IMG/VR virus record: IMGVR_UViG_3300033144_002778 | Location: 1-37,970 of that record | Reading direction: 5' to 3' (one strand) | Length of the DNA stretch: 37,970 bases | DNA from: a virus | Shown here: positions 2,749 to 37,676 of the stretch, piece by piece | Numbering within the stretch: position 1 is the stretch's first letter | Layout of the letters: each line of letters starts with the position of its first letter | Position numbers and translations under genes: made by a program | Notes under the pieces: model-generated | Told to the model about the DNA's origin: nothing | The model's input: only the letters and a program-made list of their open reading frames with translations | The model's database searches: none

Positions 2749-2764
2749 AATAATATATATTATC

Positions 2765-2809: not shown

Positions 2810-2815
2810 ACAACT

Positions 2816-3048: not shown

Positions 3049-3079
3049 TTTTAACTTGACAAATAAAAAATCTTTCCAT

Positions 3080-3107: not shown

Positions 3108-3122
3108 TATATACGGTTACCG

Positions 3123-3172: not shown

Positions 3173-3307
3173 ATGCAAAATCAAAAAAAACATTGCTTTT
3201 CTAAAAAACACCAGGATAAATCTGTCTTAGTTTCTAAGCCTGTTATCAATAAGGCAAGGCTGAATTTCAATAATCTGTCTAATGGCGGCTTAAGGACTAA
3301 AATATAA
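3173..3307 (+). CDS. Small basic protein (44 aa), unknown
   Basis: The frame runs from ATG at 3173 to TAA at 3305-3307 and overlaps the next ATG by one base (TAATG), which suggests translational coupling. The peptide is basic and polar, with Lys/His/Gln in its first half and Asn-rich segments later. Its only Shine-Dalgarno-like sequence, AAGGGC, lies inside the stem of the leader hairpin. It may be a real small protein or a leader ORF that feeds ribosomes to the next gene. Confidence 0.4.
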   Translation: MQNQKKHCFSKKHQDKSVLVSKPVINKARLNFNNLSNGGLRTKI

Positions 3308-3579: not shown

Positions 3580-3580
3580 T

Positions 3581-26711: not shown

Positions 26712-26738
26712 AAAAAGCTCACTATTCTCTTGCTTTTT
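26712..26738 (+). terminator. Weak hairpin at the end of the tail operon
   Basis: AAAAAGC (26712-26718) directly follows the spike stop codon and can pair with GCTTTTT (26732-26738) around a 13-nt loop, ending in a T run. The stem is poor in GC. It overlaps the -35 region of the next promoter. It may give partial termination of late transcripts in either direction. Confidence 0.3.
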
Positions 26739-26769
26739 CTATATAGTTTTGTTAAATTAAACTATATAG
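26730..26769 (+). promoter_or_regulatory. Promoter with double CTATATAG operator (recombination operon)
   Basis: TTGCTT (26730-26735) and TAAATT (26753-26758) are separated by 17 nt. CTATATAG lies inside the spacer (26739-26746) and again 23 bp on (26762-26769). The flanks make a wider inverted repeat, TTCTATATAGTTT against AAACTATATAGAA. AAATCAA and the ribosome binding site AAAGGAAT follow before ATG 26789. The same layout recurs at 33962 and 35449, so this is probably a co-regulated promoter set. Confidence 0.65.
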
Positions 26770-26788
26770 AAATCAACAAAGGAATAAA

Positions 26789-27514
26789 ATGAAAAAACAG
26801 GAAAAGAAAAAAACCGGATTAGAATTGTTAAGGGAGCCTTTCCCTTCTAATCAAGTGGGTAAACTACCAAAACCAACAAAATCGCAGACAGATGAAGTTA
26901 AGAAAAATTATAAAGCTGGCGTTAGGTGTGAAATATGCGGGGGCTGGCATCACCCTAAAGTAGTTCATTTGGATTACGTTGGGCATGCAGCATTAACAGA
27001 CAGATTATTAGATGCGGATAAAAATTGGAACTGGGAGCCATTGGCATTTAAGGAGGGTTTACCTGCTTTTGATGCTACCGGTGGATTATGGATTAAACTG
27101 ACGGTTTGTGGTGTTACTAGGCTTGGATATGGAAATGCGGCGAATAGTTCGTTTAAAGAAATCGGTAGTCGAGAAAAAGAAGTGATAGGGGATGCCTTAA
27201 GAAATGCTTCTATGAGATTTGGGGCGGCTCTTGACTTATGGCACAAGGGAGATCTGCACGTAGAGACAGAAGAGGATAAAGAAAAAGCAAAAGCCGAAGC
27301 GCTTGAGGAAGATGTAGACAGGGCAATTATTAATTTTGAGAAAACCAGCGACAAATATAGAACCATTGAGGCTTGGGATTCAGCTATGGGAACATTAAGA
27401 ACAAACACAAATAGAGTCTGCAAGCACCCTAGATTTATAGAATTTACCGAGGGTTTATATAAAAAAATGCAAGAATTAGACCTTAATGAGGGCTTAGGCA
27501 ATGTCGCCGAATAA
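26789..27514 (+). CDS. Rad52/Sak-like single-strand annealing protein
   Basis: The 241-residue protein resembles the phage Rad52-type annealing proteins used for recombination-dependent replication and repair. The core shows 'WNWEPLAFKEGLPAF' near residues 75-90, 'LWIKLTVCGVTRLGYGNA' near 97-114 and the family's helix 'EVIGDALRNASMRFGAALDL' near 131-150, where Ala/Arg-Phe-Gly stacking residues lie. It carries a Cys-x2-Cys-x4-His-His-like element near 46-54 ('CEICGGWHH') that may bind zinc. The C-terminal 80 residues are acidic and helical. It heads an operon under the CTATATAG promoter, with a NinB-like gene after it. Confidence 0.8.
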   Translation: MKKQEKKKTGLELLREPFPSNQVGKLPKPTKSQTDEVKKNYKAGVRCEICGGWHHPKVVHLDYVGHAALTDRLLDADKNWNWEPLAFKEGLPAFDATGGLWIKLTVCGVTRLGYGNAANSSFKEIGSREKEVIGDALRNASMRFGAALDLWHKGDLHVETEEDKEKAKAEALEEDVDRAIINFEKTSDKYRTIEAWDSAMGTLRTNTNRVCKHPRFIEFTEGLYKKMQELDLNEGLGNVAE

Positions 27515-27926
27515 ACATTTTGGTATAGTTTCGGAGGGTTGTCTAATATATCATGACCCGATGAAACTAAAAACCAAAATTGACAAATTAGAGGGGTGTA
27601 GGTTTGAGCTTACCCTTTCTAAAGAAAAAAAAATTCGGTCTAATAAACAAAATAAATACTATTGGTATATTCTTTTGAAACACGTTAAAGAAGCCCTTAC
27701 AGAGTCCCAGGGTGTAGTTTTCACCCTAGACGACGCCCATGATTTTATGAAACACAAATTCATCGGATTTAAAAAAATAAAAGTGGGTCGAACTCACATC
27801 ACCAAAAAGCCAACAACAAAGGATTTATCAACAGTCGAAACGAACCTTTATTATAAAAACATTCGTGATTGGTTGTTTATATATTTTGAAGTTTTAGCCC
27901 CTTTACCAAATGAGGATCTATCTTGA
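27501..27926 (+). CDS. NinB-like recombination protein (141 aa)
   Basis: The protein overlaps the annealing protein gene by 14 bases. Residues about 20-60 show 'CRFELTLSKEKKIRSNKQNK', followed by 'YYWYILLKHVKEAL', the pattern of the NinB/Orf group, in which Arg-Ser-x-x-Gln-Asn-x-Tyr-Tyr-Trp is typical. Lambda Orf binds single-stranded DNA and helps annealing in place of RecFOR. Pairing with a Rad52-like protein supports this role. An alternative start is Met21. Confidence 0.65.
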   Translation: MSPNKHFGIVSEGCLIYHDPMKLKTKIDKLEGCRFELTLSKEKKIRSNKQNKYYWYILLKHVKEALTESQGVVFTLDDAHDFMKHKFIGFKKIKVGRTHITKKPTTKDLSTVETNLYYKNIRDWLFIYFEVLAPLPNEDLS

Positions 27927-28090
27927 CCGAAAAAATGAGAACTCAAATTTTATCAGGGTTTGCTTTAGTCGATGAGGAATGCGACGAAATGCTATTAGAC
28001 CAAAAAAAAACACTAGAGGAAAGGCAACAAGTATATATTATACAGGTAAGAAATCTTAAAATGTGGGTGGAATTAAATAATGAAAAATAA
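27923..28090 (+). CDS. Small protein (55 aa), unknown
   Basis: TTG at 27923 overlaps the previous TGA (TTGA) and follows TGAGGA at good spacing; ATG 27935 is the alternative start (51 aa). The frame ends at TAA 28088-28090 and overlaps the next ATG. The peptide is acidic in the middle ('LVDEECDEMLLDQKK') and helical. Overlaps on both sides and normal codon use support it as a real gene. Confidence 0.55.
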   Translation: MTEKMRTQILSGFALVDEECDEMLLDQKKTLEERQQVYIIQVRNLKMWVELNNEK

Positions 28091-28352
28091 ATCAAAAATG
28101 AAAAGTTTTATTGATTCGTTGATAGATCATACATATGTTTTACACAACGATTGTACAAAACTTAGAGAGTACCAAGAAGCAAAGAAAGATGAAATATGCG
28201 ACCTTAGTTTGGTTGTAATGGAAGGCCCTTACAGTGGACAAAATATTCAGGACATTATTGATATAAACCCTGACTATTTATTGTGGTATCACAGAGAGGG
28301 CGTTTTGAAACTAAGCCCTGGTATTTTAGGAAAGATATTTAATATTTTATAG
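28080..28352 (+). CDS. Small protein with exonuclease X C-terminal-like motif (90 aa)
   Basis: The second half contains 'GPYSGQNIQDIIDINPDYLL' followed by Trp. This resembles the short DUF3820/ExoX C-terminal-like domain, in which a Gly-x-Gly-like turn, Ile-x-x-Ile, Asp-Pro-x-Tyr-Leu and Trp are conserved. The domain is often found alone in phages beside recombination genes and is thought to bind nucleic acid. The first 40 residues are a charged helix. It is the last gene of the recombination operon before a structured RNA. The similarity is by pattern only. Confidence 0.6.
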   Translation: MKNKSKMKSFIDSLIDHTYVLHNDCTKLREYQEAKKDEICDLSLVVMEGPYSGQNIQDIIDINPDYLLWYHREGVLKLSPGILGKIFNIL

Positions 28353-28358
28353 AGTTTT

Positions 28359-28446
28359 GGGAGGCTGGCCATAATAATCATTTTTCATATTCTAAACTAT
28401 GAAAAAGTATTTATCATAAATTGCTAATATCAACGGCCAGCTTCCC
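28359..28446 (+). other. Structured RNA: long closing stem with inner hairpin
   Basis: GGGAGGCTGGCC (28359-28370) and GGCCAGCTTCCC (28435-28446) form a 12-bp GC-rich stem with one G-U pair around a 64-nt AT-rich interior. Inside, TTTTTCATA (28381-28389) and TATGAAAAA (28398-28406) form a perfect 9-bp hairpin. No T run follows, so it is not a normal terminator. It ends about 10 nt before the ribosome binding site of the lipoprotein gene. It could be a leader switch, processing signal or small RNA. Confidence 0.55.
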
Positions 28447-28466
28447 GATTTAACAAAAGGAAAAAA

Positions 28467-28754
28467 ATGAAAAAATATTTATTATTATTATTGTTAACGG
28501 GGTGCATTATAAACCAGGATGATGTTGAAACAAATTCTTGGAATAAAGAGCCGCCCAAAATAACCCAAGAGGTTGTACATGATACCGTTATCGTTATCAT
28601 ACCAGAGTGTAGAGAAAAGAGGCTTGATTATTGCCTTTTGACCCCAGATAATAAAACCTTTTGCCAATTCTTACAGGGTGGGTGCCATGCGTTTTTAATG
28701 GGTGCCCCTGGTCACTCGTGTGTAAAATATAAAATTGTAGATTGCTATGAATAA
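28467..28754 (+). CDS. Cys-rich lipoprotein (95 aa)
   Basis: Residues 1-12 form a lipoprotein signal with lipobox Leu-Leu-Thr-Gly-Cys; Cys12 would be lipidated after cleavage. The mature part has six more cysteines (for example 'PECREKRLDYC', 'GGCHAFL', 'HSCVKYKIVDC'), fitting a disulfide-bonded periplasmic or surface domain. Phage lipoproteins of this size may act as outer-membrane spanin partners, superinfection exclusion proteins or receptor blockers. Spanins are usually Pro-rich rather than Cys-rich. It has the ribosome binding site AAAAGGAAAA and follows the structured RNA. Confidence 0.75.
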   Translation: MKKYLLLLLLTGCIINQDDVETNSWNKEPPKITQEVVHDTVIVIIPECREKRLDYCLLTPDNKTFCQFLQGGCHAFLMGAPGHSCVKYKIVDCYE

Positions 28755-28971
28755 ACCAAGAGATTTAACCGAGCTACTAACTAAGGGCCCCTTAATACAG
28801 GCCGCCGAAGTAATTTGTAAAGAAAATAAATTATTATATGTTGAGGCTGAATTTTGGGAAAGAAAATATGATGAACTTAAAATTAAATTTGATATTCTTA
28901 GCCTTTCTATTGGCGACGATAAACCTACAGTCGCTAACTACGAAACAGTTAAACATAAAAGTAATAGTTAA
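28747..28971 (+). CDS. Small helical protein (74 aa), unknown
   Basis: It overlaps the end of the lipoprotein gene by 8 bases. The sequence is hydrophilic and helical, with 'LYVEAEFWERKYDELKIKFD' near residues 32-51 as a probable coiled coil. No membrane segment is seen. Another ORF with a signal peptide begins inside it in another frame, so the 3' half of this gene is double-coding. Unknown function. Confidence 0.55.
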   Translation: MNKPRDLTELLTKGPLIQAAEVICKENKLLYVEAEFWERKYDELKIKFDILSLSIGDDKPTVANYETVKHKSNS

Positions 28972-29071
28972 AAGAGCTTGGCAACCTTACCCCGCCCCTG
29001 GTATATGCTTTGAGGTTGAAGGGGTTTATATTAGCGCTAGGTATGATTTAAATAAAAGGTCTTGTTTATGA
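28868..29071 (+). CDS. Small secreted/membrane protein (67 aa) nested in the previous gene
   Basis: ATG at 28868 lies within the upstream gene in another frame. The first 22 residues are a good signal peptide or membrane anchor ('LKLNLIFLAFLLATINLQSL'), followed by a short mature part with two Cys and a Pro-rich turn ('PYPAPGICFEVEG'). The frame ends overlapping the next ATG (ATGA). An exported protein nested in an upstream gene recalls Rz/Rz1-type spanin pairs, but no lipobox is present. Such a role is inference. Confidence 0.5.
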   Translation: MMNLKLNLIFLAFLLATINLQSLTTKQLNIKVIVKRAWQPYPAPGICFEVEGVYISARYDLNKRSCL

Positions 29072-29217
29072 TAGATTTTTTAAAAGTTGGATTATTTGTA
29101 ACTTGCATTATAATGTCTTATAGAGAACACCACTCATATAAAAAAACAAAAGATTTAAATTATCGGGTTTTATCTATGATGTGGATGATTATGGGTTTAC
29201 TTATTAGATGCCAATAG
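29068..29217 (+). CDS. Small two-segment membrane protein (49 aa)
   Basis: ATG at 29068 overlaps the previous stop (ATGA) and the frame runs to TAG at 29215-29217, overlapping the next gene by 10 bases. It has two hydrophobic segments, 'VGLFVTCIIM' near residues 7-16 and 'VLSMMWMIMGLLI' near 34-46, separated by a basic, His-rich loop ('REHHSYKKTK'). Size and hairpin topology suit a small holin or a membrane-depolarising protein. No lysis enzyme lies beside it. Confidence 0.55.
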   Translation: MIDFLKVGLFVTCIIMSYREHHSYKKTKDLNYRVLSMMWMIMGLLIRCQ

Positions 29218-29465
29218 ATTATTATACTACCTGCAAGAGTGCTTTCGAGAGGGCTTCTAATCGTTGTGAATTCTGCAAGGTTAAAAACCATGTGGACCGC
29301 TGGAATGGTGGTAAAATCATTTCCGTTGTGTTATCTATAGTTCACCTAGACTATGACCCCGAAAATTTAGAAGTCGAAGAACACAGGCTTGCCGTACTTT
29401 GTCAAAAATGCTTAACCAAGTATGAGAAAAAAAAGGGTGATAAAAACCAAACAAATTTATTTTAG
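29208..29465 (+). CDS. HNH-like protein with altered last motif (85 aa)
   Basis: The pattern matches small phage HNH proteins: 'RCEFCKVKN' near 19-27, then 'VVLSIVHLDYDPENLEVEEH' near 42-61 and 'LAVLCQKC' near 63-70. The first metal-cysteine pair, the His-Leu-Asp of the active-site strand and the central Asn are present. In relatives the last Cys is followed by His (Cys-x-x-Cys-His), but here that residue is Leu, so the final His of the HNH motif is missing. It may be an inactive DNA-binding form, or His61 may replace it. Confidence 0.65.
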   Translation: MPIDYYTTCKSAFERASNRCEFCKVKNHVDRWNGGKIISVVLSIVHLDYDPENLEVEEHRLAVLCQKCLTKYEKKKGDKNQTNLF

Positions 29466-29483
29466 TTTTTTTTGATTATTTAC

Positions 29484-29511
29484 TTTACAAACACTTGTAA
29501 ATATATAGATT
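29484..29511 (+). promoter_or_regulatory. Candidate promoter with TTTACAA/TTGTAAA dyad
   Basis: TTTACAA (29484-29490), ACAC, TTGTAAA (29495-29501) is a perfect 7-bp dyad. TTTACA can serve as -35 with TAGATT (29506-29511) as -10, 16 nt apart. ATATATAG (29501-29508) echoes the CTATATAG boxes of the other early promoters. Transcription would start near 29518, giving a leader of about 130 nt before the replication gene. Confidence 0.5.
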
Positions 29512-29521
29512 AGTAGAAAGA

Positions 29522-29632
29522 GAAAATTACAACCTGAATTTGCAATTTTCAAAATAACAATATAGCCCTATCCAACTCCTATTTATTTAGGACTGGTTTT
29601 CGTTCAGGTTGGCCTCTCTGGTTGGATAGGGT
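29522..29632 (+). promoter_or_regulatory. Structured leader with potential pseudoknot upstream of replication gene
   Basis: CAACCTGAA (29530-29538) is the perfect complement of TTCAGGTTG (29603-29611), and CCCTATCCAAC (29566-29576) is the perfect complement of GTTGGATAGGG (29621-29631). The arms interleave as A-B-A'-B', which is a pseudoknot. TCCTA/TAGGA (29577-29581 with 29588-29592) adds a small hairpin inside. GAAAATT/AATTTTC (29522-29528 with 29544-29550) would compete with the first helix. The last helix ends 6 nt before AAAAGGAT of the next gene, so it could control translation. I recognise no riboswitch class. Confidence 0.6.
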
Positions 29633-29647
29633 CTAAAAAGGATACAA

Positions 29648-30457
29648 ATGAAAGAGCTTCCTTACTTCAGATTTACTTGCCAGGAATGGGACTCAGGAGA
29701 TATTTCTCTTGAAAGTCATTCCACAAAAGGGCTTTTTATTGACATTTGTTCCTACTATTGGTCGCAGAATTGCGGCTTATCTCTGGACAAACTATCGAAG
29801 AAAGTCGGCAAAATGACGCAGAAGAGCCAGAGAAAGGCCAGAGATAAGCTGCTACTTCTGGCCAAATGCGGGGTTTTAAAGATAACTGGCGACAAGGTGA
29901 ATATAGGTTTTTTGGATGTTCAACTGGCTGAAATCAACAAAAAACACGAGTTTCTTTCTAAAAAAGGAAAGGAAGGAGCTAAGAAAAGAGAGGAAAATAA
30001 ACAAGCCCCCCTTAAGCCCCCCTTAAGCAATAAGATAGATAAGGATAAGGATAAGGATAAGATAGAGATAGATATAAAGAAAAAAAATAAAAAACACAGT
30101 TTTGATAAATCAATAATATTTTGCAAAATCAAATTCAAAGAAAGATTTCCTAATTGGGATTCAGAAATGTTAAACCACTACTACAACGCCGCCCTGGAAT
30201 ACTCAGGCTCAAAGGGTGCAAAATATCTTGATTGGGGTTTAGCAATTTCAAGCTGGCAGAGAAAAGAAAATTTAAAACAGAAGACGATTCAACACAACAG
30301 ACCAAAATCGTTTAAGCAACAGGAAGAAGATGAGGCGATTGCCTACATGGAAAAAATTAACCAATTTACGGAGGATGTGAAAAATGGGAGAATGGAAAAT
30401 ACAGAGGCTCAACTTATTTCGAGCGGAGATAACGAAGATGTATTTGGCGTACAATAA
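29648..30457 (+). CDS. Replication initiator / replisome organizer (269 aa)
   Basis: The N-terminal 110 residues resemble the Lin1244/Lin1753-type replisome organizer domain: 'LPYFRFTCQEWDSGDISLES' at the start, then 'TKGLFIDICSYYWSQNCGLS' near 25-45, a winged-helix DNA-binding unit. A low-complexity Lys/Asp/Ile linker (about 114-151) is encoded by tandem DNA repeats. The C-terminal part (152-225) is helical, with 'WDSEMLNHYYNAALEYSGSK', like DnaD-type or helicase-loading tails. It would melt the origin and recruit host helicase; no polymerase or helicase gene is present in the window. The structured leader suggests tight control. Confidence 0.75.
   Translation: MKELPYFRFTCQEWDSGDISLESHSTKGLFIDICSYYWSQNCGLSLDKLSKKVGKMTQKSQRKARDKLLLLAKCGVLKITGDKVNIGFLDVQLAEINKKHEFLSKKGKEGAKKREENKQAPLKPPLSNKIDKDKDKDKIEIDIKKKNKKHSFDKSIIFCKIKFKERFPNWDSEMLNHYYNAALEYSGSKGAKYLDWGLAISSWQRKENLKQKTIQHNRPKSFKQQEEDEAIAYMEKINQFTEDVKNGRMENTEAQLISSGDNEDVFGVQ
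30006..30092 (+). repeat. Iterons and A-rich stretch inside the initiator gene (candidate origin)
   Basis: CCCCCCTTAAG occurs twice in direct tandem (30006-30016, 30017-30027). It is followed by four tandem GATAAG hexamers (30038-30061), variants GATAGA/GATAGATA, and an A-rich run to about 30092. Iterons next to an A/T-rich segment within the initiator gene are the arrangement of lambda oriO and similar phages. The encoded linker is low-complexity, as if the protein tolerates DNA-level constraints. Confidence 0.6.
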
Positions 30458-30779
30458 GGTGATACAATCGAAAATAATAGACCAAAAAGCCGAATTGATG
30501 GCTGAAACTTTGGAGACTTTAAGCACTTCCAAAATATCAGCATTTTTTAAATATATTCGGGAAACTTGCGAAACACTGCCAGCCGACGGGGTTTTGAAAA
30601 GGATTCTAAAAACCAAGGCAAAAGAATATTCAAAGGCTGCAAAGGTTCTTGATGTCCCACTGATAGCCCCTGAGAGCCTCCCAGATGCCGAATGGCTGGC
30701 GAACTTCTGGGCAGGGTTGAAATTAGTGCAGATGGGAAAGATGACCCCAAAAGACGTTAAAAAGGAGCTAGGGATATAA
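30438..30779 (+). CDS. Protein following the initiator (113 aa), possible helicase-loading partner
   Basis: I choose ATG 30438 (CGGAG box, 20-base overlap with the initiator). An ATG at 30384 in the same frame also has a GGAGG box and would add 18 residues, so the start is uncertain. The protein is helical with 'SAFFKYIRETCETLPADGVL' near 34-53 and 'DAEWLANFWAGLKLVQMGKM' near 84-103. No Walker motif is present, so it is not a DnaC-type ATPase. Its position after the initiator suggests a role with it. No family recognised. Confidence 0.6.
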   Translation: MYLAYNKVIQSKIIDQKAELMAETLETLSTSKISAFFKYIRETCETLPADGVLKRILKTKAKEYSKAAKVLDVPLIAPESLPDAEWLANFWAGLKLVQMGKMTPKDVKKELGI

Positions 30780-31837
30780 TGAATTATAATTGGAGGTTGA
30801 AAGATGGGTACCCAGAAAAAAATGGGTATAAGGTTTTTTCTTGTTTTAGTTGTGGTGGTGGGTCCACAATGGGGTATAAACTAGCAGGGTTTGAGGTAAT
30901 AGGCAATAATGAGATTGACCCCAAAATGAATGAGTGCTATACCACAAACCACAGCCCTAAATATTCATTCTTAGAGCCTATACAGGAGTTTAAAAATAGA
31001 GAGGTATTACCAAAAGAATTGTATAATCTTGATATTCTGGACGGCTCACCGCCCTGTAGTAGTTTCTCAACGGCAGGTAGTAGGGAAAAAGATTGGGGAA
31101 AAGAAAAGAAATTTAGAGAGGGCCAAGCAAAGCAGATTTTAGACACTTTGTTTTTTGATTTTATTGACCTGGCCGAAAGACTACAGCCCAAAATTGTAAT
31201 CGCTGAAAATGTAAAAGGGCTTTTGATTGGTGAGGCAATTCACTATGTAAGAAAAATCAACGAGGCTTTTGAAAAAGCGGGGTATTATATTCAACACCAC
31301 CTTTTAGATGCTTCAAAAATGGGCGTTCCACAAAAAAGAGAAAGGGTGTTTTTTGTAGCCCTTAGAAAAGATTTAACACCACAATTTCAAAATCAAAAAA
31401 CAATGTTCGACCAGGAGCCAGAATTAAAACTCGAGTTTAATGAGAAACCAATTTGTTATGATGAAATAAGGGAAGATGAAGGCAATAAAAGTGCTTACGG
31501 ACTTGGAACTATGATTAGTAAATATTGGAAGATGTGTAAGCCTGGGTTTTCGTTTGACACGGTACACCCAAAAGGCAGTTATTTTAATGAAATGAAGCTG
31601 CACCCAAATAAAACACTACCAACAATACGGGCTAGTGGTCTACCATATGATTATAAAATTGAAAGAAAACTGTTTGATTCCGAAATATGCAAAGCGGGTT
31701 CTTACCCACAAGATTACAATTTTAGTGGGTCAACTCCAAATTACCTGATTGGCATGAGTGTACCCCCGCTAATGACGGCCAAAATAGCAGAACAAATAAA
31801 AACACAATGGTTAGATGAATTAGAGGTAGCCTTATGA
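30779..31837 (+). CDS. C5-cytosine DNA methyltransferase
   Basis: The 352-residue enzyme carries the ordered motifs of Dcm-type methyltransferases: motif I 'FSCGGGSTMGYKLAGFE' near 20-36 (SAM binding), motif IV 'GSPPCSSFS' near 88-96 with the catalytic Cys, motif VI 'ENVKGL' near 142, motif VIII 'QKRERVFFVA' near 184-193, motif IX-like 'TLPTIRASG' near 279-287, and motif X 'YLIGMSVPP' near 321-329. The target-recognition region is about 200-275. It would methylate cytosine in phage DNA and block host restriction. No cognate nuclease is nearby. It overlaps the next gene by four bases. Confidence 0.93.
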   Translation: MNYNWRLKDGYPEKNGYKVFSCFSCGGGSTMGYKLAGFEVIGNNEIDPKMNECYTTNHSPKYSFLEPIQEFKNREVLPKELYNLDILDGSPPCSSFSTAGSREKDWGKEKKFREGQAKQILDTLFFDFIDLAERLQPKIVIAENVKGLLIGEAIHYVRKINEAFEKAGYYIQHHLLDASKMGVPQKRERVFFVALRKDLTPQFQNQKTMFDQEPELKLEFNEKPICYDEIREDEGNKSAYGLGTMISKYWKMCKPGFSFDTVHPKGSYFNEMKLHPNKTLPTIRASGLPYDYKIERKLFDSEICKAGSYPQDYNFSGSTPNYLIGMSVPPLMTAKIAEQIKTQWLDELEVAL

Positions 31838-32040
31838 TCGAATTAGAAGAAATCAAAAAAGGCATTTTGGAGCTATGCAAAAAACACAATTGCTGCTTTC
31901 ACATTGTCCACATAGGCGACAGAGAAACCCCAGTGATAAACGTAATGAACCTGGATTGCAAATCGTTTGATTTTATATTTGCCAAAGAGGGTAAAATGGT
32001 TCCCCTTAATTCTGACAGTAAACAAGTGAGCATGTTTTGA
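31834..32040 (+). CDS. Small protein between the methyltransferases (68 aa)
   Basis: It overlaps both methyltransferase genes by 3-4 bases (ATGA and TTGA). The fold looks alpha-beta: an N-terminal helix 'ELEEIKKGILELCKKHNCCF', then strands 'HIVHIGDRETPVINVMN'. Two adjacent Cys follow the helix. Close coupling suggests a partner or regulator of the modification enzymes, but nothing in the sequence shows it. Confidence 0.65.
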   Translation: MIELEEIKKGILELCKKHNCCFHIVHIGDRETPVINVMNLDCKSFDFIFAKEGKMVPLNSDSKQVSMF

Positions 32041-32678
32041 AACCATATTTCGAAAAAGAAAACTACCGACTATACAACGCCGATTGTATGGAGCTAATGA
32101 AAACCTACCCAGATAATCATTTTGAGCTTGCAATAGTTGATCCTCCTTATGGGATAAATGTAAATAGCAGCATGGGAAGACGAAAGGGAGATACAAAAAG
32201 CAAGTTCAAAAAAGCTTCTTGGGATTCTTGCCCACCCGAAAAAGAATATTTTATTGAATTGGAACGGGTTTCAAAAAATCAAATAATTTGGGGAGCTAAT
32301 CATTTCATGGATTTAATTTCTAAGCGTTCCAGCTGCTGGATAGTTTGGGATAAGCTTTTTTCCGAGGAAGTTTCTTTTGCTTCTTGTGAACTTGCCTTCA
32401 CTAGTTTTGATTCTGTAGTTAAAAGATTTTCATATTCTAGCGCAAGACCAGACGGAATTCACCCAACGCAAAAACCGATTAAATTATACGAATGGCTTTT
32501 AAAAAACTACGCAAAAGAAGGGGACAAAATTCTAGACACCCATTGTGGCAGTGGTTCAATTGCTATAGCTTGCCACTATATGGGGTTTGACCTAACAGCT
32601 AGTGAATTAGATGCAGACTATTGCAAGGCCTCAGTTGAACGGTACAAGAAAGAAACGGCTCAGATTTCAATGTTTTAA
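32037..32678 (+). CDS. N6-adenine DNA methyltransferase (beta class)
   Basis: The 213-residue enzyme starts at TTG 32037, overlapping the previous TGA. Motif IV 'IVDPPYGINV' near 32-41 (catalytic Asp-Pro-Pro-Tyr) precedes 'HPTQKPIKLYEWLL' near 141-154 and motif I 'ILDTHCGSGSIAIA' near 164-177, the order of beta-class enzymes. The target domain between motifs is short. It would methylate adenine in phage DNA. With the cytosine enzyme, it gives the phage two kinds of base methylation. The specificity cannot be read from sequence. Confidence 0.92.
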   Translation: MKPYFEKENYRLYNADCMELMKTYPDNHFELAIVDPPYGINVNSSMGRRKGDTKSKFKKASWDSCPPEKEYFIELERVSKNQIIWGANHFMDLISKRSSCWIVWDKLFSEEVSFASCELAFTSFDSVVKRFSYSSARPDGIHPTQKPIKLYEWLLKNYAKEGDKILDTHCGSGSIAIACHYMGFDLTASELDADYCKASVERYKKETAQISMF

Positions 32679-32696
32679 AATAAAACAACAAATGAC

Positions 32697-32725
32697 TTGT
32701 TAAATCTATATAGAAAGTGTAAATT
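32697..32725 (+). promoter_or_regulatory. Promoter with single CTATATAG box; possible leaderless start
   Basis: TTGTTA (32697-32702) and TAAATT (32720-32725) are 17 nt apart, with CTATATAG (32706-32713) in the spacer, the same arrangement as the promoter at 26730. The predicted start point, about 7 nt after the -10 box, falls on the ATG at 32732, and no Shine-Dalgarno sequence lies upstream of that ATG. Confidence 0.6.
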
Positions 32726-32731
32726 AATATT

Positions 32732-33049
32732 ATGAAAAAAGATATAGAAAAAGAAAAACTTTTAAAAATGAAAAACAAGTTAGAACGGGAATTTGCAAAG
32801 GTTGCTAAATCTAAAAAAGGCAGCAAGATAGATTTCGCTTCCTGGCTTCGCAGTATTGCGGAAAAAGAAAAGAAAATAAAAGCAGAAGTATTAGACGATA
32901 AAAAACTTGTAGAGATGAGTAAGAAATTAAAAAGGGAATTTACAAAAGTTGCTGCACACGAAACCGGAAAAGGCGGGAAGTTTAGCTTTCATCTACGTGA
33001 AATTATGTGGAAAGAAATAGCAAGGTCTAAGAAAAGCAGAAAAAAATAA
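32732..33049 (+). CDS. Small basic protein with internal duplication (105 aa)
   Basis: Two similar halves are visible: residues about 12-48 ('KMKNKLEREFAKVAKSKKG' to 'WLRSIAEKEKK') and 60-97 ('EMSKKLKREFTKVAAHETGK' to 'HLREIMWKEIAR'). Each is a helix with Leu-x-Arg-Glu-Phe-x-Lys-Val-Ala, then a Gly/Lys loop and a second helix. The protein is rich in Lys and ends 'RSKKSRKK', so it may bind nucleic acid. It has its own promoter and lacks a ribosome binding site. The repeats suggest a two-headed binding protein, perhaps the regulator of the CTATATAG sites (speculative). Confidence 0.65.
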   Translation: MKKDIEKEKLLKMKNKLEREFAKVAKSKKGSKIDFASWLRSIAEKEKKIKAEVLDDKKLVEMSKKLKREFTKVAAHETGKGGKFSFHLREIMWKEIARSKKSRKK

Positions 33050-33067
33050 GGTTATATCCCCCACGAG

Positions 33068-33108
33068 GGCGGCAAGGGTTCCTTTTGATTTCATTTCCCC
33101 TTGCCGCC
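33068..33108 (+). other. Perfect GC-rich 11-bp hairpin
   Basis: GGCGGCAAGGG (33068-33078) and CCCTTGCCGCC (33098-33108) pair perfectly around a 19-nt T-rich loop. No T run follows the stem; instead TATAAA starts at once. The loop contains TTGATT, usable as a -35 box. It may end the upstream transcript with help from Rho, or act as a DNA-level cruciform/operator over the promoter. Confidence 0.6.
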
Positions 33109-33114
33109 TATAAA
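33085..33114 (+). promoter_or_regulatory. Candidate promoter overlapping the hairpin
   Basis: TTGATT (33085-33090, within the hairpin loop) and TATAAA (33109-33114) are 18 nt apart. The ATG of the next gene at 33120 lies only 5 nt after the -10 box and has no ribosome binding site, so a leaderless transcript is possible. Confidence 0.45.
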
Positions 33115-33119
33115 ATATT

Positions 33120-33575
33120 ATGACTAAAATATTACCAAAAGATGCATATCTAAAAGATATCCCAGGGGCTTTAGTTAGAACCAAAAAGGGTAAAACTAAA
33201 TTAAGTCCTGCCGGGGTTTCTGAGGAAACAATACAAAATGCCGTAGAGGACTATTTGAATTTTAAGGGTATTAAGTTTATAAGAATCCCCGACTCGATTT
33301 ATAGAATGTGCAGCCCATTTACACGAGAAGGAAGGAACACTAAAATTTGGGTAGCAAAAGAAATAAAAGAATATTTGTCAGGTATACCGGATATTATAGC
33401 CCTAAAAAAGAATGGGGAATTAAGTAACTCTAACTTAGCTTTAGAGCTTAAAAAGAAAAATGCCAAACCCAGGCAAGCACAAATAAATTGGGCCTTGGGG
33501 ATCACGGTACACTATCCAGACACGATAGATAAGGCTATTAATCTTATTGATAGATGGATGAAAGAAGAGGGCTAA
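33120..33575 (+). CDS. VRR-NUC/PD-(D/E)XK-like nuclease (151 aa)
   Basis: The core has the nuclease pattern 'LSGIPDIIALK' near 86-96 (catalytic Asp), 'LALELKKKNAKPRQAQINWA' near 105-124 (Glu-x-Lys, then a conserved Gln and Trp), and an N-terminal 'EETIQNAVEDYLNFKGIKF' helix-strand, as in VRR-NUC and Holliday-junction-resolvase-like proteins. Such phage enzymes process branched DNA before packaging. Residues 1-35 are basic. It lacks a Shine-Dalgarno sequence at its only plausible start. It belongs with the recombination and methylation genes. Confidence 0.8.
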   Translation: MTKILPKDAYLKDIPGALVRTKKGKTKLSPAGVSEETIQNAVEDYLNFKGIKFIRIPDSIYRMCSPFTREGRNTKIWVAKEIKEYLSGIPDIIALKKNGELSNSNLALELKKKNAKPRQAQINWALGITVHYPDTIDKAINLIDRWMKEEG

Positions 33576-33576
33576 A

Positions 33577-33804
33577 ATGCCTAATAAGTTCGAGCGGTTT
33601 GATAAAAACCTCCAAAAACAGTTACTAGAGGCACGAAAAAGAATTAAATTAATTAATCAGATGCTAGTTGATGCCAATATTGTATGTCATAAAATGGATA
33701 CGATGCTAAAAAGAAAAGACGAAGAAATCGAAATGCTAAGAGAAAGAATAAAAATCCCCTTAAAAATGGTAGCAAAACATGATATTAAAAAAATCGGAAG
33801 TTAG
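33577..33804 (+). CDS. Coiled-coil protein (75 aa), unknown
   Basis: It starts one base after the nuclease gene. The sequence is charged and almost wholly helical, with heptad-like Leu/Ile/Met spacing ('LLEARKRIKLINQMLVDANI' near 16-35; 'KDEEIEMLRERIK' near 49-61). No other motif. It may be a DNA-binding or assembly partner of the nuclease. Unknown function. Confidence 0.6.
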   Translation: MPNKFERFDKNLQKQLLEARKRIKLINQMLVDANIVCHKMDTMLKRKDEEIEMLRERIKIPLKMVAKHDIKKIGS

Positions 33805-33955
33805 AATTGAATCCGCTGAATCAGGTTGTTTTTTAGTTATGACAAGAAGACAGTCGGAAATATACGGTATTAAGCCTACGATGCAAAAAAGGATATCCTT
33901 GTATCAAAATACCTTTAATAAAGTCGCAAAAAAACATTTATTATTTAATTCTTAA
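33779..33955 (+). CDS. Small basic protein (58 aa), unknown
   Basis: ATG at 33779 lies in another frame within the end of the coiled-coil gene (26-base overlap), and the frame runs to TAA at 33953-33955. The peptide is basic, with 'ESGCFLVMTRRQSEIYGIKP' and a Lys/His-rich end. No good ribosome binding site is seen, so coupling to the upstream gene is needed. Composition looks like a real protein. Confidence 0.45.
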   Translation: MILKKSEVRIESAESGCFLVMTRRQSEIYGIKPTMQKRISLYQNTFNKVAKKHLLFNS

Positions 33956-33961
33956 TATCGC

Positions 33962-34000
33962 TTGTTTTTCTATATAGTTTTTTGTATTCTTTATATATAG
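33962..34000 (+). promoter_or_regulatory. Promoter with CTATATAG operator (accessory operon 2)
   Basis: TTGTTT (33962-33967) and TATTCT (33985-33990) are 17 nt apart. CTATATAG at 33970-33977 lies in the spacer and ATATATAG follows at 33993-34000, 23 bp away, as at 26739/26762. AAATCAA and AAGGAAAAG come before ATG 34019. Confidence 0.65.
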
Positions 34001-34018
34001 AAATCAATTAAGGAAAAG

Positions 34019-34165
34019 ATGAACAAACCACTAAAAGATTATACTCAAGAAGATTGGGAAAGGGTAGATAGACTACTTAATAAGGTTGGGGTTGAAATGG
34101 ATAACTTCGAAGATTTTATAAAAAACCCCATCGAACATATGAAAAGAAAGCGGGCCGGAAAATGA
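34019..34165 (+). CDS. Small protein (48 aa), unknown
   Basis: It is the first gene after the second CTATATAG promoter, with the ribosome binding site AAGGAAAAG. The 48 residues are charged and helical, with 'TQEDWERVDRLLNKVGVEM' and a basic end 'HMKRKRAGK'. The stop overlaps the next ATG (ATGA). First genes of such phage operons are often anti-host or anti-defence factors, but nothing specific is visible. Confidence 0.6.
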   Translation: MNKPLKDYTQEDWERVDRLLNKVGVEMDNFEDFIKNPIEHMKRKRAGK

Positions 34166-34410
34166 ATTTATATTTAATATCACAAGACATTAATAACGAT
34201 TATGACACCTATGATTCTGCGGTAGTTGCTGCCGAATCTAAAGAGGAAGCAAGGGGTATTCATCCACATGAAGACTTCGGATCTGATGGTTTTGATATTG
34301 ATTTCGATGACTGGGTAAGGCCCATTGATGCATATAAAATAAAAGTGGAATTAATAGGAACAACAGATAAAAAGAAGGGTGTAATATTATCTTCTTATAG
34401 GGCGGGATAA
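34162..34410 (+). CDS. Conserved phage small protein (82 aa)
   Basis: The opening 'LYLISQDINNDYDTYDSAVV' followed by 'AAESKEEARGIHP' recalls a small protein type seen in many phages and prophages, of unknown function. The protein looks alpha-beta, with acidic loops ('DFGSDGFDIDFDDW') and C-terminal strands. Start overlaps the previous gene (ATGA). Confidence 0.7.
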   Translation: MNLYLISQDINNDYDTYDSAVVAAESKEEARGIHPHEDFGSDGFDIDFDDWVRPIDAYKIKVELIGTTDKKKGVILSSYRAG

Positions 34411-34411
34411 A

Positions 34412-34606
34412 ATGATTTGTATTTTGTTAAATATTTTTTTAGGGATGTTGATTGGGTTGTTTTTCCCCTTATTCATCTATTATATATCGGTTCTTAGTGA
34501 TCTTGATTTTGGAGACTACAAAACAAAGAAACAGTTTTTAAAAGATTTAATCCCGTTTTGGGGGTTTTTCCGAAAGAGAAACGATATTTTTAAAAATTTA
34601 GAATAA
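34412..34606 (+). CDS. Small membrane protein (64 aa)
   Basis: Residues about 2-28 form one long or two short hydrophobic segments ('ILLNIFLGMLIGLFFPLFIY'), followed by a soluble, basic C-terminal half ('FRKRNDIFKNLE'). An inner-membrane protein with a cytoplasmic tail is likely. Possible roles include superinfection exclusion or lysis. Unknown. Confidence 0.6.
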   Translation: MICILLNIFLGMLIGLFFPLFIYYISVLSDLDFGDYKTKKQFLKDLIPFWGFFRKRNDIFKNLE

Positions 34607-34614
34607 GGAATAAA

Positions 34615-34746
34615 ATGATTAGCAAGGGATTAGCAATTACAATTGCAGTGGTAATAATAATTGGCTTAGGTGCCTGGGCTGAGAAGCTTTCACCAGGCAG
34701 CAAACCACAGCCAAACTTTTCAACATACTATCCAGGGGGTGAATAG
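34615..34746 (+). CDS. Small exported or membrane-anchored peptide (43 aa)
   Basis: ATG at 34615 follows AATAAGGAATAAA, the leader sequence used at several accessory genes. Residues 4-22 are hydrophobic ('GLAITIAVVIIIGLGAWA'), with Ala-Trp-Ala as a possible signal peptidase site. The rest is Pro/Ser-rich ('SPGSKPQPNFSTYYPGG'). The layout recalls small spanin-like or signal-arrest proteins, without a lipobox. The next gene starts immediately. Confidence 0.55.
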   Translation: MISKGLAITIAVVIIIGLGAWAEKLSPGSKPQPNFSTYYPGGE

Positions 34747-34905
34747 ATGGGACACAGTAAAGACACTAGGGAAGGAATGTTGATTGGTGAAAACTGTAAC
34801 GAGTGCGGATCTTATCTAGACGATGGTGAAGGATTTCCAGTAACCTGTGATACTTGTGAAAATGGCCCCTCTGATGAGGAGAACTGGAGGAGTTTGGAGC
34901 AATGA
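34747..34905 (+). CDS. Small zinc-ribbon protein (52 aa)
   Basis: ATG at 34747 directly follows the previous stop. 'NCNECGSYLDD' and 'VTCDTCENGP' provide two Cys-x2-Cys knuckles, enough for one zinc ribbon. The rest is acidic. The last four bases overlap the next gene (ATGA). It is the first of three consecutive tiny Cys-pair proteins. Confidence 0.6.
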   Translation: MGHSKDTREGMLIGENCNECGSYLDDGEGFPVTCDTCENGPSDEENWRSLEQ

Positions 34906-35069
34906 AAATAAAGTGCAAGAATCCAGAGTGCGAAAGGGATGCTGTTAGAATTTGGTGCTCTAGCAAGTGCAGAGACAAGGCTAGGTATTTTAGTAATACG
35001 GCAAAATTCAAAGTTATAAGGCGATCTATTCCTAAAAATCCAGATGACGTTTACAGGTTTAAGATATGA
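34902..35069 (+). CDS. Small zinc-finger protein A (55 aa)
   Basis: ATG at 34902, stop at 35067-35069. Pattern Cys-x4-Cys ('CKNPEC') and then Cys-x3-Cys ('WCSSKCRDKARYFSN'), an FCS-like treble of metal ligands with a basic helix. The next gene codes for a clear relative with the same spacing. The C-terminus is basic ('FKVIRRSIPKNPDDV'). DNA or RNA binding is likely but unproven. Confidence 0.6.
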   Translation: MKIKCKNPECERDAVRIWCSSKCRDKARYFSNTAKFKVIRRSIPKNPDDVYRFKI

Positions 35070-35203
35070 AACCATGCGAGAATACAGAGTGCAAGGAAGA
35101 ATCCAAATTAAGGTTTTGTTCTAGGAAATGCAGAAATCGGTATCACTATTTAAAACGAGAAATCTGGAAAATGCCAGGAGCGAAGGAAAAAGAAAATGAT
35201 TAA
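35066..35203 (+). CDS. Small zinc-finger protein B (45 aa), paralogue of A
   Basis: ATG at 35066 overlaps the previous stop and the frame ends at TAA 35201-35203. The arrangement 'MKPCENTECKEE' then 'FCSRKCRNRYHYLKREIW' repeats that of the neighbour: Cys-x4-Cys, about ten residues, Phe-Cys-Ser-x-Lys-Cys-Arg and a basic helix. A tandem duplication with strong divergence is likely. Confidence 0.6.
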   Translation: MKPCENTECKEESKLRFCSRKCRNRYHYLKREIWKMPGAKEKEND

Positions 35204-35447
35204 AAAACTATGGAATTTGATTTTCCCTAAAATATACTTTGCTAGTTATGAGGGCAGAGTGCTTAGAGTAAAGTGGACCAACGGAAAGACTAGTATTTAT
35301 CATGGTGAGTGTACTGTTTGGTTTCATTATCCAGAAATAAAAAGGTGTGGTTTTTTTCTTGAGGGACAGCTTTGTGATGTTTGGTCCTATCTCAAGGTAC
35401 ACGGAAACGATTACCCAGACGCTCATTTAAAAAAAGATGATAAATAA
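35196..35447 (+). CDS. Small protein (83 aa), unknown
   Basis: It overlaps zinc-finger gene B by 8 bases and ends the second accessory operon. It seems a compact beta protein rich in aromatic residues ('RVLRVKWTNGKTSIYHGECT', 'CGFFLEGQLCDVWSYLKVHG') with three or four Cys. No family recognised. Confidence 0.6.
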   Translation: MIKKLWNLIFPKIYFASYEGRVLRVKWTNGKTSIYHGECTVWFHYPEIKRCGFFLEGQLCDVWSYLKVHGNDYPDAHLKKDDK

Positions 35448-35448
35448 C

Positions 35449-35487
35449 TTGGATTCTATATAGTTTGTTGTTAGTTTATATATATAG
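35449..35487 (+). promoter_or_regulatory. Promoter with CTATATAG operator (accessory operon 3)
   Basis: TTGGAT (35449-35454), 17 nt, TAGTTT (35472-35477). CTATATAG at 35456-35463 lies in the spacer and ATATATAG at 35480-35487, 24 bp on. AAATCAAAC and the ribosome binding site AAAAGGAAT precede ATG 35509. The -10 box is the weakest of the set. Confidence 0.6.
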
Positions 35488-35508
35488 AAATCAAACAAAA
35501 GGAATACA

Positions 35509-35853
35509 ATGATTATACACACGTTGGCTGTTAAAAATACAGAAGATTGGGGAAATTTTGAAGATTATCAAGTTGGGATTATTCAGGGCGAACTTGACAC
35601 TATGGATATTGAAACCCTTATTGAATTGGAGTCAGACGGTAGTTACACGGCTGAAATTGTAGACTGTGAAGAACAAGAATTAATTATAACTATCATGAGT
35701 GGGAATGTTCAGGAAATTGTTGATTGCTTATCTAGCCAGTTTGAAAGCGAAAGAGAATTAAACGAAATGGTTTCACTAAAGCCGGTATTTACTTTAAAAA
35801 AAATAAGTTTAGCCAAAGCAGTAGTTGAAATTGATTGGGCGGTGGTTGTATGA
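35509..35853 (+). CDS. Very acidic protein (114 aa), possible DNA mimic
   Basis: By my count it has about 24 Asp/Glu against 6-7 Lys/Arg. Acidic residues are spread over the first 90 positions ('DTMDIETLIELESDGS', 'IVDCEEQELIIT', 'SQFESERELNEMV'), while the last 20 are hydrophobic strands. Small phage proteins with this charge pattern often mimic DNA and block restriction or other DNA-binding host proteins. It is the first gene behind the third CTATATAG promoter, which suits early expression. The function is inference from charge. Confidence 0.65.
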   Translation: MIIHTLAVKNTEDWGNFEDYQVGIIQGELDTMDIETLIELESDGSYTAEIVDCEEQELIITIMSGNVQEIVDCLSSQFESERELNEMVSLKPVFTLKKISLAKAVVEIDWAVVV

Positions 35854-36266
35854 GCATAGAGAAAAAACTAGAAAAGGCACTTGTCAAAAAATCATTTCAG
35901 GATGGGGTGATTCAAGGTATTAGGTTATTATCAAATTCAATCCTTGAAAAAGGAATGGAAGTCGATAATTTTGTTTTGGAACGATTAACCGATTTGACGA
36001 TTAAGGAAGTAACCAAAAGATTTAAAGATTTGGAAGTCTCAAAGCAACCACAATATATTTTTGCAGAAAACAGAGGCGCCTATATTGAGCACATAAAGGC
36101 TCGTGAGTGGACCCAGGCATTTTATATCTATTTATACGCGCCTAGCCAATTAAGGGGCATAGCCAACCCTATTATTCATTATGTGGGCAATTACAGCAAT
36201 AACCCCAGCTATGACTCAGTGAGAAGAATGGAACGAGAACGAACTTTTACAAATAAGGTGGAATAA
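35850..36266 (+). CDS. Unknown helical protein (138 aa)
   Basis: I choose ATG 35850, which overlaps the previous TGA (ATGA), rather than TTG 35835. The protein is helical: an N-terminal Lys-rich helix, 'DGVIQGIRLLSNSILEKGME', then 'LTDLTIKEVTKRFKDLE', and a C-terminal basic end 'VRRMERERTFTNKVE'. A central segment has aromatic residues ('YIYLYAPSQLRGI'). No domain recognised. Its coupling to the acidic protein suggests a joint role. Confidence 0.65.
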   Translation: MSIEKKLEKALVKKSFQDGVIQGIRLLSNSILEKGMEVDNFVLERLTDLTIKEVTKRFKDLEVSKQPQYIFAENRGAYIEHIKAREWTQAFYIYLYAPSQLRGIANPIIHYVGNYSNNPSYDSVRRMERERTFTNKVE

Positions 36267-36376
36267 TGGATTTTGCAATGTGTTTTGTTTGTGTTGTTGT
36301 GCTTGTAATTTTGTTTCATGGTGACCCAAGTCTCATGGATGCTTTAATTCAAAATTTAATGTCAAATTCAAAATAA
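36266..36376 (+). CDS. Tiny membrane protein (36 aa)
   Basis: ATG at 36266 shares a base with the previous TAA, and the frame ends at 36374-36376. Residues 3-17 are a hydrophobic segment ('FAMCFVCVVVLVILF'), followed by a polar tail. It looks like a single-span membrane peptide. Overlap and operon position support it; function unknown. Confidence 0.45.
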   Translation: MDFAMCFVCVVVLVILFHGDPSLMDALIQNLMSNSK

Positions 36377-36384
36377 GGAATAAA

Positions 36385-36663
36385 ATGTTTATACCAGGAA
36401 CCAATATACTAGCAACCTATGAAGACTTAGAAAACGAAGTAAGGGCAGGGCGTCGCTCAATGCAAATTATGGGCTTAAGAACACAGCTTTTAGGTTGTGA
36501 ACTTCAAAAGGTGGACAAAGGTAACGAGATTTTTGATTATAAAGAGGGCGTAATTGATAAGCCTATGCTTATTGCAATTAGGCAATTAATCAAGGATGGA
36601 AACTATGATAAATTTAGAGATGGCGCCAGGATTAACGTTAGAAGCCAGAATTTAACAGGGTAG
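36385..36663 (+). CDS. Small protein (92 aa), unknown
   Basis: It has the leader AAATAAGGAATAAAATG shared with other accessory genes. The protein looks alpha-helical with 'YEDLENEVRAGRRSMQIMGL' near residues 12-31 and a basic C-terminus ('KFRDGARINVRSQN'). It is the last coding gene before the structured RNA cluster. No family recognised. Confidence 0.6.
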   Translation: MFIPGTNILATYEDLENEVRAGRRSMQIMGLRTQLLGCELQKVDKGNEIFDYKEGVIDKPMLIAIRQLIKDGNYDKFRDGARINVRSQNLTG

Positions 36664-36669
36664 AAATTA

Positions 36670-36790
36670 GATGATTAGGTTTGCCCTTGCCAAAGAAATT
36701 TGGTTTATAAATAGGCCAGGTTCAAGTCCTTGGCAATCATCTATAGGGTGTGGTCGCCATCCTGAAGGGGTTTAAATCCCCAGTGGCCTA
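36670..36790 (+). ncRNA. Structured RNA region with two overlapping tRNA-like folds
   Basis: Fold 1: GATGATT (36670-36676) pairs perfectly with AATCATC (36735-36741), enclosing CCAAA-GAAA-TTTGG and GCCAGG-TTCAAGT-CCTTGGC, the latter like a T-arm with its TTCAA loop. Fold 2: TAGGCCA (36712-36718) pairs perfectly with TGGCCTA (36784-36790), enclosing GGGTG-TGGTCGC-CATCC (5-bp stem, 7-nt loop with GTC at the anticodon place) and GGGG-TTTAAAT-CCCC. Both have tRNA size and arms, but T33 and other fixed bases are missing and they overlap. Degenerate tRNA genes or another structured RNA are both possible. Confidence 0.4.
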
Positions 36791-36816
36791 AATTTTAAAC
36801 AGAGGTTGCGTGAGTA

Positions 36817-36895
36817 AGTGGTGGTTTGGAAACCTGAGAGACAGAAAAGCTGGGCGGTACTAAAGGTCCTATCTTTCGCCTACCAGAGGCCCACT
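36817..36895 (+). ncRNA. Structured RNA, third element of the cluster
   Basis: AGTGG (36817-36821) pairs with CCACT (36891-36895). Inside are GGTT-TGGA-AACC (36823-36834) and a stem CTGG-GCG (36850-36856) with CGC (36877-36879), 3-nt bulge, CCAG (36883-36886), capped by AAAG-GTCCTAT-CTTT (36862-36876). This is a 79-nt branched fold without an ORF. No match to a known RNA by eye. Confidence 0.4.
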
Positions 36896-36918
36896 AAAAT
36901 AACCGAAATAGGTAAAAA

Positions 36919-37140
36919 ATGAACTTTATTAAAAAATATTATCAATTATTCCTTTTTTGGATGGACCTATTAACAAAGGTTAAGTTTTCAGATAGACCGG
37001 AACGACCCTATACACAAGATTATCTCAATGATTACCCTCGATTATTAAAGAAAACCCTTACCTATAGAAAATGGGTTTTAAAAAGAAAGATTCTATTGAT
37101 GAAAATAAGCTATAAGAAAGCATTGAGGCGGTCTAAATGA
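36919..37140 (+). CDS. Small basic protein (73 aa), unknown
   Basis: It lies between the structured RNA elements and has the weak ribosome binding site ATAGGT. The N-terminal 20 residues are aromatic and hydrophobic ('FIKKYYQLFLFWMDLLTKV'), possibly a membrane-associated helix, and the C-terminus is strongly basic ('RKWVLKRKILLMKISYKKAL'). It overlaps the next gene by four bases. Confidence 0.55.
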   Translation: MNFIKKYYQLFLFWMDLLTKVKFSDRPERPYTQDYLNDYPRLLKKTLTYRKWVLKRKILLMKISYKKALRRSK

Positions 37141-37478
37141 ATCATAACGAAATAGAAGCATTGGCAAAGCTAAGATTAGACGACCTTCGATATTTTGGGT
37201 TTAAATCAAGCCTACTTAAGCATGTTGAAGACCTAGCAGACAAAAACGAAATGTACGAGCCTATCAATATTCAATTTGTTCCAGATGCTTACACAATAGA
37301 CAAAGAGAACAAAGCCTGTGTGATTTACGAGGTCGAGAACACGCACAAAATATCAATTGAAAAGCTAAGACATATTCACAAAGTGGCCTGGGATCTTGAT
37401 TATTACCATTGGGATCTAAAACTAATAGCAGTGAGCCACAGAGGGGCAGCAATTGAAATCGAACTGAATTTTAAATAG
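37137..37478 (+). CDS. PD-(D/E)XK-like small protein (113 aa)
   Basis: The pattern 'QFVPDAYTIDKENKACVIYE' at about 46-65, followed by 'VENTHKISIEKLRHIHKVA', gives Pro-Asp on one strand and Tyr-Glu-Val-Glu on the next, with a helix carrying Lys after it. This is the core of restriction-endonuclease-like folds, and similar short proteins occur in many phages. The second acidic element is Glu-Val-Glu rather than Glu-x-Lys, so activity is uncertain. The stop codon TAG overlaps the first bases of the following RNA element. Confidence 0.65.
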   Translation: MNHNEIEALAKLRLDDLRYFGFKSSLLKHVEDLADKNEMYEPINIQFVPDAYTIDKENKACVIYEVENTHKISIEKLRHIHKVAWDLDYYHWDLKLIAVSHRGAAIEIELNFK

Positions 37479-37630
37479 GTGGTGGCGGAATAGGTATACG
37501 CAGTAAATAGGAGATACGGATAAACGACTATCATAGAAACTGTTTATCATGCGGGGTGACTATACGAGTTACCACCCCTCCTGAAAAGGGGAACGGCAAT
37601 AGTTCTCGTCAAATCCCCGCCCACCTTTTT
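37477..37630 (+). ncRNA. Structured RNA of 150 nt with tRNA-Leu-like D-arm and T-run end
   Basis: AGGTGG (37477-37482) pairs with CCACCT (37621-37626), followed by TTTTT. TGGCGGAATAGGTATACGC (37483-37501) is close to a tRNA-Leu D-arm. GATAAAC (37519-37525) pairs with GTTTATC (37542-37548). CGGGG (37552-37556) pairs with CCCCG (37615-37619), next to TCAAAT, which would make a normal T-arm if about 51 nt between them were absent. The insert holds GTGACT-ATACG-AGTTAC and GGGAAC-GGCAATA-GTTCTC hairpins. It is too long for a tRNA. It could be a tRNA-like element with an insert or a novel RNA, ended by the T run. Confidence 0.5.
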
Positions 37631-37640
37631 AAATTTCCAT

Positions 37641-37669
37641 TTGGAATAAACAACTTTTAAACATAGACT
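37641..37669 (+). promoter_or_regulatory. Promoter of the terminase genes; possible leaderless start
   Basis: TTGGAA (37641-37646) and TAGACT (37664-37669) are 17 nt apart. CTATATAG (37668-37675) overlaps and follows the -10 box. The expected start point is the A of the ATG at 37677 or the base before it. No ribosome binding site lies upstream of this ATG, so the transcript may be leaderless, with the CTATATAG box at the start point as an operator. Confidence 0.5.
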
Positions 37670-37676
37670 ATATAGA

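Follow-up and report, generated by a model that had tools for sequence, protein, structure and literature searches.

Repeated operators on phage promoters are a well-known kind of system. The operators of the lambda repressor (OR/OL) are 17 bp long, form part of the lysogeny switch and have a spacing similar to the 23-24 bp found here. In the Cluster A mycobacteriophage L5, the operators/stoperators are asymmetric 13-bp sites that are oriented with transcription and also occur outside promoters (PMC9283540). The T4-type PeSLs (cited in PMC4503421) are promoter/stem-loop cassettes, in which early-promoter modules are repeated before small variable genes. The locus described here resembles each of these systems in part. 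As in lambda OR/OL, short palindromic sites 23-24 bp apart centre to centre overlap predicted sigma-70 promoters (P1-P5). Unlike in lambda, the palindrome is 8 bp, the five promoters extend over 11 kb, and the window has no recognised repressor or integrase gene. As in L5, many copies of one site occur across the phage genome, some of them in promoters; the sites here, however, are palindromic 8-bp sequences and all exact copies are in promoters. As in the PeSLs, repeated promoter modules precede small variable genes, but no convincing terminator stem-loop was seen before P1-P4, where the weak AT stems have z-scores of -1.94 to 0.04. To our knowledge, PeSLs have no floating palindromic box.

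The phage, IMGVR_UViG_3300033144_002778 (G000), is a 37,970-base IMG/VR virus record, the whole of which is referred to as the window. It is an uncultivated contractile-tailed phage with a structural region followed by an early-type region, which encodes the annealing protein, a NinB-like protein, two DNA methyltransferases and a VRR-nuclease-like protein and ends with the terminase small subunit (Table 1). Intergenic DNA makes up about 1.9 kb of the 38 kb, roughly 5%. The first bases of the record, as read from the sequence, resemble the C-terminus of the terminase large subunit of a relative, L129 (IMGVR_UViG_3300027856_000388), and this suggests a circular map from which roughly 1.3 kb of terminase is absent. 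In L129 itself, the terminase large subunit appears to be interrupted near its C-terminus by an intein-like insertion (3100-5180), which by eye follows KKEGDH, begins CLVGETL and ends HNFSVNGGLIVANS; in the window copy this position is uninterrupted. The window gene for the cytosine-type DNA methyltransferase (30779-31837) is 78.8% identical over 398 bases at the nucleotide level to Rhodobacteraceae phage LS06-2018-MD05. Since no other window gene matches that phage, a recent exchange is suggested.

Table 1. Coordinates of genes and predicted promoter elements in the window
Feature	Position	Strand	Details
Portal	308		structural region
Box-free promoter	3080..3175	+	TTGCTT-16-TATATT at 3080; leader with two inverted repeats; ATG 3173
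Capsid	11102		structural region
Sheath	14296		structural region
Baseplate	21998		structural region
P1	26730..26791	+	TTGCTT 26730; box 1 CTATATAG 26739; -10 TAAATT 26753; box 2 CTATATAG 26762
P1 leader		+	AAATCAA, AAAGGA, then ATG 26789 (annealing protein)
Single-strand annealing protein	ATG 26789	+	start of early-type region, downstream of P1
Two DNA methyltransferase genes	30779 and 32037		
P4	32697..32734	+	TTGTTA 32697; one box CTATATAG 32706 in spacer; -10 TAAATT 32720; ATG 32732
Basic, internally duplicated 105-aa protein	32732..33049	+	behind P4
P2	33962..34021	+	TTGTTT 33962; box 1 CTATATAG 33970; -10 TATTCT 33985; box 2 ATATATAG 33993
P2 leader		+	AAATCAA, AAGGA, then ATG 34019 of 48-aa ORF
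P3	35449..35511	+	TTGGAT 35449; box 1 CTATATAG 35456; -10 TAGTTT 35472; box 2 ATATATAG 35480
P3 leader		+	AAATCAA, AAAGGA, then ATG 35509
P5	37641..37679	+	TTGGAA 37641; -10 TAGACT 37664; one box CTATATAG 37668 overlapping -10; ATG 37677
Terminase small subunit	ATG 37677	+	downstream of P5

The box CTATATAG is an 8-bp palindrome. Six exact copies are present in the window, whereas 100 dinucleotide-preserving shuffles gave 0.49 on average and never more than 3, and 6/6 are intergenic, where about 0.03 would be expected. With one mismatch allowed, 17 matches were found against 16.6 expected, which is chance level, so the exact box alone is informative. A variant, ATATATAG, accompanies the exact box in P2 and P3 and occurs once more at 29501. 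All nine positions had been given by an earlier sequence-only reading and were confirmed, as was the distance within the three pairs, put there at 23-24 bp and measured here as 23, 23 and 24 bp. The variant at 29501..29508 (+), which that reading had entertained as a possible sixth member, was rejected; it has no TTG-17-TANNNT, and the next gene is 140 nt away.

At all five loci with an exact box, exactly 17 nt separate a TTG-containing -35 from a TANNNT -10, as in sigma-70 promoters (TTG-N20-TANNNT when written from the TTG, which puts the -10 at a constant distance of 23). This pattern occurs 11 times on the + strand of the window, and the five intergenic occurrences are exactly the five exact-box loci, which bears out the -35 and -10 elements assigned in the earlier reading. 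Spacers of 14-16 or 18-21 nt gave 0-3 intergenic sites each, none of them at a box. When the flanks were shuffled with the boxes held, 5/5 was reached in 0 of 20,000 trials and 4/5 once, nominal odds that overstate the case because the rule, although independent of the boxes and canonical in its terms, was stated after the sites had been seen, and because P1-P3 are possibly of common ancestry and not fully independent. The boxes and promoters are clearly not due to chance, and the repeated palindromic sites overlap the promoters beyond chance expectation. The five loci are most likely ordinary-looking sigma-70-type promoters, with weak hexamers such as TTGGAT/TAGTTT in P3.

As had been described for P1-P3, box 1 falls between the -35 and the -10, here within a spacer of 17 nt, and box 2 comes shortly behind the -10 and is followed by AAATCAA and the ribosome site. 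Box 1 begins 9, 8, 7 and 9 bp from the TTG and 14, 15, 16 and 14 bp from the -10 in P1, P2, P3 and P4, respectively; it floats by up to 2 bp inside the spacer while the hexamer distance stays constant. Such floating against fixed hexamers fits an occluding operator and not a polymerase contact. In P1-P3, box 2 coincides with the expected start site, its first base being 8-9 bp downstream of the first base of the -10. P4 has box 1 only, and the single box of P5 overlaps the end of the -10, out of register at +4 from the first -10 base versus +8/+9 elsewhere. From these observations we infer, with somewhat better than even confidence, that the boxes are operators of a phage repressor acting on the five promoters. 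The regulator, probably a phage-made repressor, would be a dimer that binds the 8-bp palindrome and, at box 1 between the -35 and the -10 and/or at box 2 on the start site, would exclude RNA polymerase. Repression would be tighter at P1-P3, with two boxes, than at P4 and P5, with one. The paired boxes had been placed on about the same helix face; this is not the case, as 23-24 bp correspond to 2.2-2.3 turns of B-DNA and set the paired sites about 70-100 degrees apart. This offset speaks against operators, as do the register of P5, the lack of a recognised regulator and the lack of the boxes in any relative or other contig searched.

The pair might itself be read as the -35 and -10 (23-24 bp start to start) of promoters for an alternative or phage-modified polymerase. 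In favour of this reading, each pair would enclose a spacer of 17-18 nt, TATATA could pass as a -10 of fair quality, and the leader length of P1-P3 would fit. Against it, box 2 is lacking in P4 and box 1 in P5, and a start site set by the P5 box would fall inside the gene. The TTG-17-TANNNT found at 5/5 loci would be left unexplained, and no polymerase or sigma gene was recognised among the scanned window proteins. We consider this reading very improbable. The weak hexamers, as found in activator-dependent promoters, and the two DNA methyltransferases encoded by the phage would suit boxes that bind an activator or are targets of these enzymes, with the promoters timed as a middle class. However, a protein at box 1, between the hexamers, or at box 2, on the start site, would be in a blocking position, whereas activators usually bind at or upstream of the -35. 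MerR-type promoters differ in their spacer, which here has the normal 17 nt. We regard activation or methylation as highly unlikely.

The origin of the promoters bears on whether the boxes are operators. In pairwise local alignments, the upstream regions of P1-P3 reach 32-34, as compared with 17 for the next best gene pair. Their likeness is concentrated in TTG, CTATATAGTTT, TATATAGAAATCAA and AAGGA; the boxes, TTT, GAAATCAA and the ribosome site are shared, while the spacers and hexamer cores differ. P1-P3 could derive from one duplicated promoter module copied without any regulator, the boxes persisting either as a piece of the module or because AT-rich sequence in the spacer and at the start site favours promoter melting. 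The failure to find a regulator agrees with such copying, and so does G005 (L068; IMGVR_UViG_3300035138_000061), a phage of the same lineage by capsid (51% identity). G005 has its own repeated promoter at 38701 and 39114, TTGACTTTATGAGGATTT..TATAAT with the common leader TAAGGTAATTAACA, which resembles that of the window in standing before small genes with spacer and leader conserved. Unlike in G000, the hexamers are near-consensus (TTGACT/TATAAT), the spacer is different and CTATATAG is absent. A repeated cassette with another spacer makes module copying plausible in this lineage, in which repeated promoter modules may be common. In P1-P3, however, divergence including indels has affected the second half of the -35, the remainder of the spacer and the -10 core but has spared the boxes, a pattern expected of operators. 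Exact boxes also occur in P4 and P5, which are otherwise different promoters and not copies, and box 1 floats relative to the hexamers. Boxes that are fixed in diverged spacers and exact in P4 and P5 favour selection on the boxes rather than recent copying, and we regard copying without a regulator as possible, though rather unlikely.

The boxed set was also compared with the promoter at 3080, which together with its leader is conserved in L126 and G002 (three genomes including the window) and has no box. Upstream of it, in 2749-3172, there is a terminator-like stem GCTCAATC..GATTGAGC followed by TTTTTTT (about 2818-2848). A conserved promoter without a box indicates that the boxes are not a basal promoter part, that one or more promoters of the structural genes lie beyond the proposed regulon, and that the boxed set is not genome-wide.

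Several other structures were observed. Two inverted repeats in the leader at 3100-3173, GTCTCA..TGAGAC and GCCCTT..AAGGGC, are likewise conserved in L126 and G002 and may form a translational control element; 2 nt separate the end of the second from the ATG. Long GC-rich stems (12-14 pairs) lie between genes of the early cassette at 28357-28450, 29562-29630 and 33066-33110, with z-scores of -5.8, -3.0 and -3.2, respectively. Before the 29648 gene, at 29530-29630, the inverted repeats CAACCTGAA/TTCAGGTTG and CCCTATCCAAC/GTTGGATAGGG are interleaved and could form alternative structures or a pseudoknot. tRNA-like fragments are present at 36662-36790 and 37478-37627, GGTGGTGGCGGAATAGGTATACGC ... 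CTCGTCAAATCCCCGCCCACC being similar to a leucine tRNA that carries an insertion and AGGTTCAAGTCCTTGG to a T-arm; neither Rfam nor ARAGORN at normal settings gave anything convincing around 36.7 and 37.5 kb.

Weak matches of flavobacterial phages to early proteins of the window prompted a trial of the Bacteroidota promoter model (TTG / TAnnTTTG, with TTG about 19-20 nt upstream), which did not fit. By eye, TAGTTTTG, the Bacteroidota-type TAnnTTTG, occurs in P1 only and has no correctly spaced TTG. AGGA/AGGAG-type ribosome sites precede most window genes and the promoters resemble the sigma-70 type, whereas Bacteroidota members are without Shine-Dalgarno sequences (PMC6847099). Bacterial assemblies with capsid relatives are scattered over several phyla.

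The boxes were then sought outside the window. The capsid relatives G001 and G002 (79%) cover structural genes only. The portal relatives L126, L127 and L129 (65-70%) and the more distant G004 and G005 have no boxes, but their early genes also differ from those of the window. Upstream, L126 and L129 extend into small ORFs without a match to any window early gene, and the capsid/portal and early-gene searches found no relative with the window early genes. Relatives of the annealing protein were distant, mostly GC-richer and without boxes, the nuclease query found none, and the 29648 query returned three distant loci without boxes. Across 2.9 million viral contigs, a strict two-box DNA pattern gave 0 matches and a relaxed one gave 15, one per contig, without the promoter-leader-ribosome-site layout of P1-P3. 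TATATAGAAATCAA with a ribosome site gave 30 matches in viral contigs, never twice in a fetched locus and many of them in groups of near-identical loci. No contig with the box set emerged from these pattern scans, and a literature search for CTATATAG with phage found no relevant report among the papers listed.

That no obvious repressor gene is seen had been noted before and still applies: among the scanned window proteins, with about 1.3 kb of the genome absent, no repressor-like protein was recognised. Many small proteins of the phage have no assigned function. The protein at 32732 is a candidate regulator by position and charge only. It had no significant match among solved structures, and its single-sequence fold (four helices, pLDDT 55) was too poor to use. 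At 34747-35200, three adjacent small ORFs each have paired cysteine motifs and are zinc-finger-like, with only weak Pfam matches. A weak helix-turn-helix match in the terminase small subunit is usual for its family. A more specific form of the regulator reading, which we regard as decidedly unlikely, is that one of the unassigned small phage proteins, such as the duplicated 32732 protein, itself behind the one-box and predicted leaderless P4, or a zinc-finger-like protein, reads the palindrome and grades the promoters by box number. Such a protein would represent an undescribed family with a box code, in which two boxes would mark leadered early genes and one box leaderless genes, including the terminase.

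The genes behind the promoters had been described as recombination, nuclease, anti-host and packaging genes under one phage regulator. Several unrelated genes are indeed joined, but the anti-host label is not borne out, as the genes after 33970 and 35456 have no recognised function. The two promoter forms differ in their leaders. Whereas P1-P3 have box 2, AAATCAA and an AAGGA-type site before the ATG, the -10 is followed by the ATG after 6 nt in P4 and 7 nt in P5, neither of which has a ribosome site. Leaderless mRNAs are therefore predicted for the 32732 gene and the terminase small subunit. In Deinococcus, TANNNT directly before an ORF is a documented mark of leaderless mRNA (PMC12340547).

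If the boxes are operators, the phage would have a compact native promoter set whose control is readable from sequence, with one- and two-box forms to compare. The predicted leaderless terminase message offers a second testable point. The box itself would serve as a defined DNA bait for finding a regulator among the unassigned small phage genes.
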